In this document: piece after piece, positions 27,623-30,697 of the stretch
Position numbering within the stretch: position 1 is the first letter of the stretch
Layout: each line of letters starts with the position of its first letter
Assembly: GCF_004348725.1 (NCBI RefSeq)
Contig: NZ_SMKR01000030.1
Span: 1-52,103, forward strand
Origin: Kribbella turkmenica
GTDB taxonomy: Bacteria > Actinomycetota > Actinomycetes > Propionibacteriales > Kribbellaceae
Direction of reading: 5' to 3'
Length of the DNA: 52,103 bases
Notes under the pieces: generated by a model
Told to the model about the DNA's origin: nothing
Databases searched by the model: none
What the model saw: only the letters and a program-made list of their open reading frames with translations
Program-made: the position numbers and the translations under genes

Positions 27623-28857
27623 AGGCCCGGCACGCGCTGATCGACCTCGAGCCGTTGCGCGCCTCCCCGGCGTTCCGGCGACTGTGGGCCGGCCAGGTGC
27701 TGTCGACGTTCGGCGGGCAGCTCGCATTCGTCGCAGTGATGTTCCAGGTGTGGGACCAGACGTCGAGTGCCGCCTGGACCGGCGCGGTCGGGTTGTCGCA
27801 GGCCGTGCCGCTGATCGTGCTCGGGTTGTTCGCGGGTGCGGCGGTCGACCGGTTCGAGCGTCGGCGGTTCTACCTGATCACGGTCAGCGGCCAGGTGGTC
27901 GTCTCGGGGCTGATGGCCGGTCAGCTGGTGATCGGTCCGGTGCCGGTCGGCGTACTGCTCGGGCTCGTCGCGGCCCAGGCCGCGTTCGCGGCCGCGGGCG
28001 GTCCGGTGGCCCGGACCGTGCTCCCGCAACTGCTGCCCCGGGAGCTGCTCGCCGGCGGGATCGTGCTCAACCGGATCGCCTTCCAGGGCGCGATGCTGAT
28101 CGGTCCGGCCCTCGGAGGGTTGATCGTGAACGCGTGGGGCGTCGGCGTCTGCTACCTCGTCGACTGCCTGAGCTTTCTGGCCGCCCTGTACGGCGTCCTC
28201 GGTCTGCCGGCCATGCACGTCCAGACCGTCGCCCGGCCGGGCCTGCGCGGGATCGCCGACGGCCTGGCGTTCGTGGTCTCGACGCCGGTGATCCGGGGTG
28301 CGTTGATCACCGATCTCGCCGCGACGGTGCTGGCGATGCCGGTCAGCCTGTTCCCGGTGATCAACGCCGAGCGGTTCGGCAACGATCCGCGGACGCTCGG
28401 CCTGTTCCTGACCGCGATCGCGGTCGGCGGGGTGGCGGCGTCCGTCCTGTCCGGGTCGTTCACCCGGCTGCCGCGGCCCGGTGTGGTGATGCTGGCCGGA
28501 TCCACCGGGTGGGGGATCGCGCTCGCCTGTTTCGCGTTCTCGCCGACCCCGTGGGCGGCCTTCGGGTTTCTCGCTCTCGCCGGCGCCGCGGACACGATCT
28601 CGGTCGTCTCCCGCAGCACGATCCTCCAGCTGCACACGCCGAACGAGCTGCTCGGGCGGGTCACCGCGGCCGAACAGATCGTCGGTCAGGCGGGACCCGA
28701 CCTGGGCAACCTCCGCGGCGGCCTGCTCGCCCAGGCGACCTCACCGCTGATCGCCCTGGCCTCCGGAGCCCTCCTCTGCGTCGCCGTCGTGGCCGCCGTG
28801 GGAGCGACGACCCCGGGCCTCCGGTCAGCGGCCGGTCGAGATCGCGCCGTCGCCTGA
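27619..28857 (+). CDS. MFS transporter (MFS_3/EntS-like exporter)
   Basis: A 412-aa major facilitator with 10-12 predicted membrane segments. Features: LRASPAFRRLWAGQVLSTFG at the N-terminus, the loop AVDRFERRRFYLITVSGQ and FQGAMLIGPALGGLIVNAWG. It resembles the enterobactin-exporter/macrolide-efflux branch, so export of a small molecule is likely. Translationally coupled to the MarR gene. Its last 33 bp overlap the convergent FGE gene. Confidence 0.92.
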   Translation: MKARHALIDLEPLRASPAFRRLWAGQVLSTFGGQLAFVAVMFQVWDQTSSAAWTGAVGLSQAVPLIVLGLFAGAAVDRFERRRFYLITVSGQVVVSGLMAGQLVIGPVPVGVLLGLVAAQAAFAAAGGPVARTVLPQLLPRELLAGGIVLNRIAFQGAMLIGPALGGLIVNAWGVGVCYLVDCLSFLAALYGVLGLPAMHVQTVARPGLRGIADGLAFVVSTPVIRGALITDLAATVLAMPVSLFPVINAERFGNDPRTLGLFLTAIAVGGVAASVLSGSFTRLPRPGVVMLAGSTGWGIALACFAFSPTPWAAFGFLALAGAADTISVVSRSTILQLHTPNELLGRVTAAEQIVGQAGPDLGNLRGGLLAQATSPLIALASGALLCVAVVAAVGATTPGLRSAAGRDRAVA

Positions 28858-29808
28858 GACCAGCGCAACCGTGCGGAAGCCGGCGTTCCCCATGGAGGAC
28901 TCCGGGGTGTTCGACGACCGGGCGGCGTTCCGGTAGCGGTTGCAGTACGAGTCGTGGCACAGGTACGAACCGCCGCGCATCACCCGGGCGGCGCCGAGGG
29001 ACGGGCCGTGCGGGTCCTCGCCCGGGGAGAACTTGTAGTACCGCGGGCCGAACCAGTCGGCGCACCACTCCCAGACGTTGCCGACCGTCTGCCAGAGGCC
29101 GTAGCCGTTCGGCTCGAAGGTCCGCACCGGCGCGGTCGTCAGGTGGCCGTCGTCCAGGTCGTTGCGCTGCGGGAACAGGCCCTGCCAGATGTTGCAGCGC
29201 CACTCGCCGTCGTCACCGATCAACTCCTCGCCCCACGGATACCGCGCGCCTTCGAGACCGCCGCGGGACGCGTACTCCCACTCGGCCTCGGTCGGCAGCC
29301 GCCGCCCGGCCCACGAGCAGTAGGCGACCGCGTCGTTCCAGCTGACGTGGACGACAGGATGGTCGTCCAGCCCGTCGAGGTCGGACCGGCCACCGCCCGG
29401 GTGCCGCCAGTCCGCACCCCGGACGCCGACCCACCACGGCGTCCCGGACGCCGGCCCCATCACGTCCTTCGGGTCCGCCTGCAAGGCCAGGTGGAACACC
29501 GCGGAGAACCCGAAGATCTCCGCCTCGGTCCGGTACCCGGTGTCCTCGGCGAACCGCGCGAAGTCGGCGTTGGTCACCGAGGTCGCGTCGATGCTGAACG
29601 CCCGCACCCGCACCTGGTGGACCGGCACCTCGCCGTCGCCGGGATTGCCGTCCCCGGAGCCGTCGCCCATCGCGAACACGCCGCTGTCGAGCCGGATCTG
29701 CTCGATCCCGTGCACGCCATCCGCAGGCTCCGGCGCAGGCGGCGGGATGGATTCGATCCCCAGCACCGGCCGTGACGGCGCGCAACAGGACGGCAGTTCC
29801 TCGCTCAT
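28825..29808 (-). CDS. Formylglycine-generating enzyme (sulfatase-modifying factor)
   Basis: A 327-aa copper-dependent oxidase that converts the cysteine of a CxPxR motif in sulfatases to formylglycine. FGE-sulfatase domain markers: GVFAMGDGSGDGNPGDGEVP, HPVVHVSWNDAVAYCSWAGR, RRLPTEAEWEYASRGG, VGNVWEWCADWFGP and RGGSYLCHDSYCNRYRNAAR with the active-site pair C284/C289. It closely resembles the Streptomyces coelicolor enzyme as I recall it. It carries its own CAPSR motif at residues 9-13 (after SC). No sulfatase gene lies in the window. Start ATG at 29808. Confidence 0.95.
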   Translation of the reverse strand: MSEELPSCCAPSRPVLGIESIPPPAPEPADGVHGIEQIRLDSGVFAMGDGSGDGNPGDGEVPVHQVRVRAFSIDATSVTNADFARFAEDTGYRTEAEIFGFSAVFHLALQADPKDVMGPASGTPWWVGVRGADWRHPGGGRSDLDGLDDHPVVHVSWNDAVAYCSWAGRRLPTEAEWEYASRGGLEGARYPWGEELIGDDGEWRCNIWQGLFPQRNDLDDGHLTTAPVRTFEPNGYGLWQTVGNVWEWCADWFGPRYYKFSPGEDPHGPSLGAARVMRGGSYLCHDSYCNRYRNAARSSNTPESSMGNAGFRTVALVSGDGAISTGR

Positions 29809-29836: not shown

Positions 29837-30697
29837 TCACAGCGTGGGCGGGCCCTGTTCGATCCGGCGGAGGACGGGCTCGAGGCGGTGGAAGTCGTCG
29901 CCGCTGAGGAGTTGGCGTTCGTCCCACCACGTGGCGCCGGCTTCGGCCAACGGCTCGACGGTGCCGCGGTAGTCCGCCGGGTCGCTGATACCGCCGACGA
30001 CGACGTCGTACGGGGTGCTCCGGTCGCCGCGCAGCTCGCCGAGGTAATCCATCAGCTCGCGGAAGTCGTCCACCGGCGGGGCGACGCCGTGGTTCGCGGT
30101 CAGGAACAGCGGTACGGCGCCGTCCCAGCGGGCCGCCCGTCGCATCGGCGTCCGGCGCGGCCAGTAGCCGGCGATCCAGACCGGCGGCCGGGGCTGCTGA
30201 ACCGTTGCCGGGAGCAAGGTCACGTCGTCGACCCGGTAGTGCCGCCCGTCGTGGTGAACCGTCTCACCGGACCAGTACCGCGTCAGCAGGTCGAGGCCCT
30301 CGTCGAGCATCTCGGCCAGCACCTTCGGGTCGGTCGCGGCGCCGAAGCTGCCGAACTCGTCGTCGATCGGCCCACCCAGGCCCGCGCCGAACACGACCCG
30401 TCCGCCACTCAGCGCGTCCAGCGTCGCGATCTGCCGGGCCAACTGCTCCGGCCGCCGCCGGGCGACCGGCGTGACCAGCGGGCCGAGCTTGATCCGGGAC
30501 GTCGCGAGCGCGGCCGCGGTCAGCAGCATCCAGGGGTCGCCGAACGCCTGACCCTGCCGTTCCCGCTTGCTGTGGACGACGTGGTCCCAGAGGAACAGGC
30601 CGTCCCAGCCCGCGTCCTCGGCTGCGGCCGCCACCCGCGCGACGGTCCGGGCGTCCGCGAAGTCACCGAAGTTCGGGATGTTGATCGAGAAGCGCAC
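29837..30697 (-). CDS. LLM class flavin-dependent oxidoreductase
   Basis: A 286-aa luciferase-like (beta/alpha)8 protein: MRFSINIPNFGDFADARTVA, GWDGLFLWDHVVHSKRE, IKLGPLVTPVARRRPEQLAR and LDALSGGRVVFGAGLGG. The group uses FMN or F420; F420 is usual in actinomycetes, but the cofactor cannot be told from sequence by eye. It lies 28 bp upstream of the FGE gene on the same strand, so the two may be co-transcribed. Substrate unknown. Confidence 0.92.
   Translation of the reverse strand: MRFSINIPNFGDFADARTVARVAAAAEDAGWDGLFLWDHVVHSKRERQGQAFGDPWMLLTAAALATSRIKLGPLVTPVARRRPEQLARQIATLDALSGGRVVFGAGLGGPIDDEFGSFGAATDPKVLAEMLDEGLDLLTRYWSGETVHHDGRHYRVDDVTLLPATVQQPRPPVWIAGYWPRRTPMRRAARWDGAVPLFLTANHGVAPPVDDFRELMDYLGELRGDRSTPYDVVVGGISDPADYRGTVEPLAEAGATWWDERQLLSGDDFHRLEPVLRRIEQGPPTL

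Follow-up and report, generated by a model that had tools for sequence, protein, structure and literature searches.

The window, a stretch of 52,103 nucleotides of Kribbella turkmenica DNA, encodes on its minus strand a formylglycine-generating enzyme (FGE) of 327 amino acids (28825..29808). The protein matches the FGE-sulfatase domain PF03781 at 275.6 bits (cut-off, 23.3), and its best solved matches are the Streptomyces coelicolor FGE structures 6muj (E 1.2e-131 by sequence) and 2q17. The Pfam match covers the catalytic domain, residues 36-314 (28867..29703, minus strand), where the catalytic C-x3-Y-C pair is intact, as the original prediction had it, in the strand GGSYLCHDSYC. The two cysteines, C284 (28957..28959, minus strand) and C289 (28942..28944, minus strand), were located from the sequence and from the 6muj alignment, and correspond to C272 and C277 of S. 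coelicolor FGE (Sc-FGE) in the numbering used in PMC4505483. The AlphaFold model of the protein, built on an alignment of 55 of the 80 named actinobacterial loci (see below) together with loci L231 and L232, has a mean pLDDT of 87.0 and an FGE fold, for which chain 6muj_D is the best solved match (E 7e-46; TM scores of 0.81 on the query and 0.91 on the target). This gene is thus a true FGE gene.

The catalytic domain is preceded by an N-terminal tail, residues 1-35 (29704..29808, minus strand), which lies outside the Pfam match. The N-terminus reads MSEELPSCCAPSRP in the translation of the ORF 28825-29808 (minus strand) and includes the cysteine-pair motif C8-C9-A-P-S-R13 (29770..29787, minus strand), so that the CAPSR pattern at residues 9-13, which had drawn attention to the gene, is indeed present. 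The tail is modeled with low pLDDT (means of 47 for residues 1-10 and 53 for residues 11-20) and left disordered, with no docking onto the domain seen in the window model.

Among the PF03781 matches in the K. turkmenica genome, the window FGE is the only intact one found to have the catalytic pair, the 73.7-bit match on contig C282 aside. The match on contig C101, a protein that we take to resemble EgtB, lacks the pair, and those on contig C142 are fragments. Near the start of C142 lies a second FGE-like stretch (L003, L005), the frame of which is lost before the catalytic strand and which is probably a remnant.

The window yielded no sulfatase-like ORF; the 15 PF00884 matches of this genome are all located on other contigs. 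In their surroundings, the pattern search detected 11 distinct C-x-P-[SA]-R signatures, with none in two of the loci (L010 and L014); therefore, the window FGE has substrates in trans, and it is presumably an ordinary aerobic, copper-dependent enzyme that activates the sulfatases of its own genome. One of the sulfatase signatures, on contig C25 (L016), reads LCCPSR, so that CC is present in a probable native substrate as well. The lack of a nearby sulfatase, to which the original prediction had pointed, is real but of little informative value, given that a sulfatase-like ORF is present in the flanks (up to 6 kb) of 51 of the 80 related FGE loci. A link between the tail and the absence of sulfatases was rejected on the same count; tails were found in both settings, and the four tail-less loci among the 80 (L080, L086, L092 and L096) all have a sulfatase-like ORF in their flanks. 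The gene 28 bp upstream of the FGE gene (29837..30697, minus strand; PF00296) encodes an LLM-class oxidoreductase and is perhaps co-transcribed with it; homologs of this F420/flavin-type enzyme were found in the FGE flanks of all 20 same-genus loci L172-L191, and also in those of L021-L024.

The conservation of the tail was analyzed in a collection of 324 loci, which yielded 278 frames with the catalytic pair, 246 distinct cores and 152 representatives at 80% identity. The 80 named actinobacterial loci were the best 80 of 558 relatives. In Actinomycetota at large, 45 of the 396 genomes searched had a match, and 50 of the 56 listed places were taken. Matches were obtained in 28 of the 38 genomes of the window's genus, in 92 of the 147 PF03781-containing genomes of its order, from which 40 more regions were added, and in 144 of the 392 genomes of the genus that includes the S. 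coelicolor-like members, from which 30 loci were taken. The plasmid sample, a minority of the plasmid records listed, comprised 28 regions of 27 records from Actinomycetota, Pseudomonadota, Bacteroidota, Cyanobacteriota and haloarchaea. The sample outside Actinomycetota is accordingly small, consisting of plasmids and three viral contigs. The domain start was set by HMM, and two loci with late domain starts (L119 and L165) were excluded; L165 is an FGE of a Synechocystis plasmid that is split over two reading frames in that record.

The FGEs form two classes. In the CHxSYC class, represented by 186 distinct proteins (103 representatives at 80% identity), the first catalytic cysteine is followed by histidine, as it is in the window, S. 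coelicolor and human enzymes. A CC or CxC pair lies no more than 90 residues ahead of the domain in 176 of the 186 members (97 of 103 representatives), and in 164 (87 of 103) this pair is CC, in counts made on stop-to-stop frames, which may take in a fortuitous CC preceding the actual start; the scoring of L106 as a CxC tail is doubtful, as its pair may be located upstream of the true start. The loop that precedes the catalytic strand contains no CC in any of the 186. In the other class (60 distinct FGEs, 49 representatives), the pair is found in that loop, 15-31 residues before the GGS, in 46 of the 60 members (37 of 49), whereas a CC or CxC before the domain was found in only 4 of the 60 (3 of 49), by eye upstream of likely starts. 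The loop-type FGEs, among them those of mycobacteria, rhizobia and haloarchaea, thus share with the window FGE a CC, mostly CC-x-P, along with the catalytic pair, but their motif is placed differently and their catalytic strand is mostly of the CAPxYC type. Tails were detected in Actinomycetota, Alphaproteobacteria and one haloarchaeon, and loop motifs in Actinomycetota, Pseudomonadota and haloarchaea. The model of one loop-type FGE (L231) has a mean pLDDT of 62, and less than 50 over most of residues 214-292.

The tail motif is far above chance. Among 142 CHxSYC-class FGEs, CC precedes the domain in 124 in frame, whereas the two other frames give 12 and 10; for CC.P, the counts are 113 in frame versus 2 and 3. 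Composition shuffles on the 81 representatives of this set at 80% identity gave CC in 7 on average and in 15 at the maximum, compared with the 68 observed. In a FastTree tree constructed without the loop, with support below 80 in 63 of the 149 inner branches, the two classes lie on opposite sides of a single branch with a local support of 100, and the four-state motif label requires 10 changes versus a mean of 50 after shuffling. Hence, the position of the motif changed at one deep split and was then retained on either side of it, apart from sporadic losses in terminal branches. As the tail and loop positions correspond to this one split, their mutual exclusion may reflect a single event. Together, these observations provide strong evidence of long-term selection on the motif.

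What is conserved across the 246 distinct FGEs is the cysteine pair, usually in the form CC-x-P: proline is found at position +2 from the second cysteine in 151 of 176 tails and 35 of 46 loops. Arginine at +4 is lineage-specific. In the close homologs of the window FGE, the tail is conserved: the orthologous group, which consists of four named Kribbella loci, the window and loci from same-genus genomes, has CCAP[SA]R in 21 of 21 distinct members, all with R at +4, and the linker that follows differs among them in length as well as in sequence. All 10 distinct members of the S. coelicolor-like group have the pair and 9 of the 10 have CC.P, with R at +4 in none. The CxC variants are mostly spaced CGxPxR rather than CxPxR (8 of 176 tails), and the Microbacterium-type tails, CGxxCxCGAPxR, contain four cysteines, have lost the CxPxR spacing and, judging by their pattern, resemble a metal site.

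These patterns bear on the possibility that the tail is a self-substrate or pseudosubstrate, in that an FGE molecule, its own or a different one, would oxidize C9 to formylglycine, or the tail would act as an inhibitor that blocks the substrate groove. In favor of this reading in the window's own clade, CAPSR matches CxPxR exactly and C-x-P-x-R is invariant in the 21 close orthologs, and the sulfatases of the same genome share this consensus. However, the full C.P.R pattern is present in only 69 of the 176 tails and 3 of the 46 loops, 8 CxC tails have the CGxPxR spacing, none of the 10 S. coelicolor-like tails conform, and the conservation of C8 is left unexplained. The restriction of R to certain lineages and the spacing in the Microbacterium-type tails argue against the sulfatase consensus being the general reason for conservation, and for a metal or thiol role. 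We consider the self-substrate explanation improbable for the window FGE, and as a general function it was rejected on the counts of R at +4, CxC spacing and loops. Thus, of the initial interpretation, the real and conserved tail stands, whereas a CxPxR self-substrate as the general function is not supported.

The distribution of the pair among other members of the family was also examined. Ten FGEs of the other class carry an N-terminal signal, anchor or lipoprotein leader, read by eye (from Nostoc, two Hymenobacter, Acinetobacter, two Caballeronia, two Cupriavidus metallidurans, Burkholderia and Skermanella), and none of these has the motif, compared with a loop CC in 46 of the 50 leaderless members. 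This set is not a random sample because 7 of the 10 (L168, L170 and five among L248-L252 and L254) were sought as relatives of leader-bearing groups and so were partly picked for their leaders. When leaders were called by a hydropathy rule (15-residue mean of at least 1.7), 7 of the 60 were flagged, all 7 without the motif, versus 46 of the remaining 53 with it, which corresponds to a hypergeometric probability of 9e-6 if relatedness is ignored; in the CHxSYC class, the same rule flagged a single Ala-rich linker (L256). The correlation rests on about two clades. Given that human FGE is exported to the endoplasmic reticulum (ER) and yet keeps a CxC, export alone is not decisive, and the rule is bacterial at most. 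A search of viral contigs for leader-bearing FGEs, with the Hymenobacter protein as the query, found no relative. Four leader-bearing proteins of one group (L168, L249, L251 and L252) have a single tail cysteine, followed by Y and G-L-P, along with APVGC in the domain, a combination that possibly forms a structural disulfide in place of the free pair.

Family frames that lack the catalytic pair also lack the motif: CC or CxC before the domain was found in 0 of 37, including 0 of the 13 that are nearly complete where the domain begins, the remaining controls being fragments, near-copies or partial viral matches, with L165 being half of the split FGE. Outside the leader-bearing set, catalytic FGEs without the pair are few, namely, 4 of the 50 leaderless members of the other class (L140, L149, L316 and L318) and 10 of the 186 in the CHxSYC class (L080, L086, L092, L096, L111, L117, L197, L200, L322 and L323), including two, L197 and L200, from the window's own genus.

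The S. coelicolor enzyme (Q9F3C7; 2q17, 6muj) shares the core, the catalytic pair and the fold with the window FGE. The FGE encoded in L255 (1462-2451, minus strand), from a Streptomyces-group genome, shares 99% identity with the solved S. coelicolor chain and has the tail VTLTHRPCCAPAT, of the same kind as that of the window FGE. Its frame continues upstream as VTLTHRPCCAPATAPVAVAAPSP, with GTG at the position where relatives have M (MTSTHRPCC, MTLVHRPCC). Counted from this upstream GTG, the catalytic pair is at 287/292, whereas counting from an internal GTG 15 codons downstream (VAVAAPSP) places it at 272/277. The published numbering of the Sc-FGE catalytic residues is C272/C277 (PMC4505483), which fits the internal start only, and in the longer L255 form, residue 16 or 17 is the first one matched by the 6muj and 2q17 chains. 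From the numbering and the match to the solved chains, it follows that the enzyme that was studied and crystallized most probably lacked 15 native residues, including the pair. Judging from this 99% identical relative, S. coelicolor A3(2) itself probably encodes the upstream tail stretch. The FGE of T. curvata (6s07, 5nxl), solved with Cu or Ag, has a CHxSYC-class core like that of the window FGE, but the 6s07 chain has only about 20 residues before the domain, so this construct, too, is probably without the cysteine tail. In Microvirga (L158, 1501-2367), the annotated start of the FGE WP_237050932.1 is downstream of an in-frame MTKDCCSPPTR stretch, and similar annotated starts may hide the motif elsewhere.

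Human FGE (SUMF1) belongs to the same CHxSYC class as the window FGE (GGSYMCHRSYC in 8aru) and, as described, contains a cysteine pair, C50/C52, in its non-catalytic N-terminal extension, comparable to the bacterial tails. The letters around this pair, which we take to be CGCGTPQR, resemble the Microbacterium CxCGAPxR tails. The human protein differs in that it resides in the ER, and C50/C52 have been explained in print by interaction with ERp44 and ER retention: both cysteines are described as required for sulfatase activation and for ERp44 interaction, with their mutation abolishing activation, in a review that restricts the N-terminal extension to the FGE of higher eukaryotes (PMC7279497). 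The human core without the extension is reported to be active in vitro, although an earlier report cited in the same paper found the extension to be necessary in vitro (PMC4505483). The bacterial tails and the human extension seem to represent one type of element within a single FGE class, a cysteine pair in a flexible N-terminal extension. Our literature search, which had little reach into subscription papers, found no mention of a cysteine tail or loop motif in bacterial FGE; in agreement with the original prediction, no bacterial role assigned to the tail was found in the accessible literature.

Because copper in the cytosol is tightly buffered, a means of capturing it would be of use there and less needed in the periplasm. 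We propose, with a probability of about one half, that the tail uses its thiols to capture Cu(I) and passes it to C284/C289; of the three options raised at the outset (self-substrate, autoinhibitory arm and copper-delivery site), copper delivery is the one that we favor. The conserved C8-C9 pair would serve as a thiol arm, carried on a flexible linker and taking Cu(I) from the copper-poor, thiol-rich cytosol, and thiolate exchange would then move the ion from the arm to the bis-thiolate site formed by C284 and C289. The C-x-P element, along with R13 in the window's clade, may allow the arm to dock in the substrate groove. In FGE, Cu(I) is reported to be held by two cysteines, with the substrate cysteine as the third ligand (PMC12123546), and the tris-thiolate geometry formed with the substrate might also serve for loading. 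Binding of copper by the tail, its docking and the transfer are what we infer from the conserved pair, from its two alternative positions in the chain and from its absence in the examined leader-bearing and non-catalytic members. In the accessible literature, we found no account of copper acquisition by a cytosolic bacterial FGE; for human FGE, a review makes the case for metalation in the ER, possibly through ATP7A (PMC8067471). Sc-FGE purified from Escherichia coli is reported to contain about 0.01 Cu and to be strongly activated by added copper (PMC4505483), and this low content may be due to the expression in E. coli. The human core from insect cells contained 0.34 Cu without the extension (PMC4505483), so a tail is not required for copper uptake in every setting.

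The main rival of the copper relay is a redox arm: the dithiol would supply electrons for turnover or hold C284/C289 and the copper in the reduced state, with cellular thiols regenerating the dithiol. In line with such an arm, FGE requires an external reductant, and vicinal or CxC thiol pairs are well known as redox elements. Also in line with it are the absence of the pair from the leader-bearing, presumably periplasmic FGEs, as expected of a thiol that has to be kept reduced, and the description of human C50/C52 as acting via ERp44. The redox arm fits many of the same facts as the copper relay. However, tail-less Sc-FGE and the human core turn over in vitro once loaded with copper, and the activity of Sc-FGE is reported to be unchanged by treatment with oxidant or reductant (PMC4505483); furthermore, a plain dithiol leaves the conserved P at +2 and the four-cysteine tails unexplained. 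We regard a redox arm as rather unlikely, but clearly more plausible than the self-substrate.

As improbable as the self-substrate is a role of the pair in binding Zn(II) or in docking a reductase or copper chaperone, without itself carrying Cu(I). The di-Cys motifs of plant HMA4 are reported to bind zinc tightly (PMC6255694), and binding to ERp44 has been ascribed to the human tail. FGE, however, uses copper as its active metal (PMC4505483), and the variability of the linker in both sequence and length leaves little surface for a partner, which argues against docking.

Returning to the copper relay, its broadest form is the more tentative one: a relay built into FGE, in which a cysteine-pair arm that is in part a substrate mimic would be conserved in bacteria, archaea and human C50/C52, would occupy either of two positions in the chain, would have been dropped in non-cytosolic bacterial FGEs and would have been missed in the reference enzyme through a misplaced start. 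It would also appear that the studies of S. coelicolor FGE, and its use in making aldehyde tags, relied on an enzyme without its native tail. Furthermore, because bacteria have no ER, retention in the ER would not be the original role of the human element if this element is related to the bacterial ones, and bacteria would then offer a simple system in which to test it.
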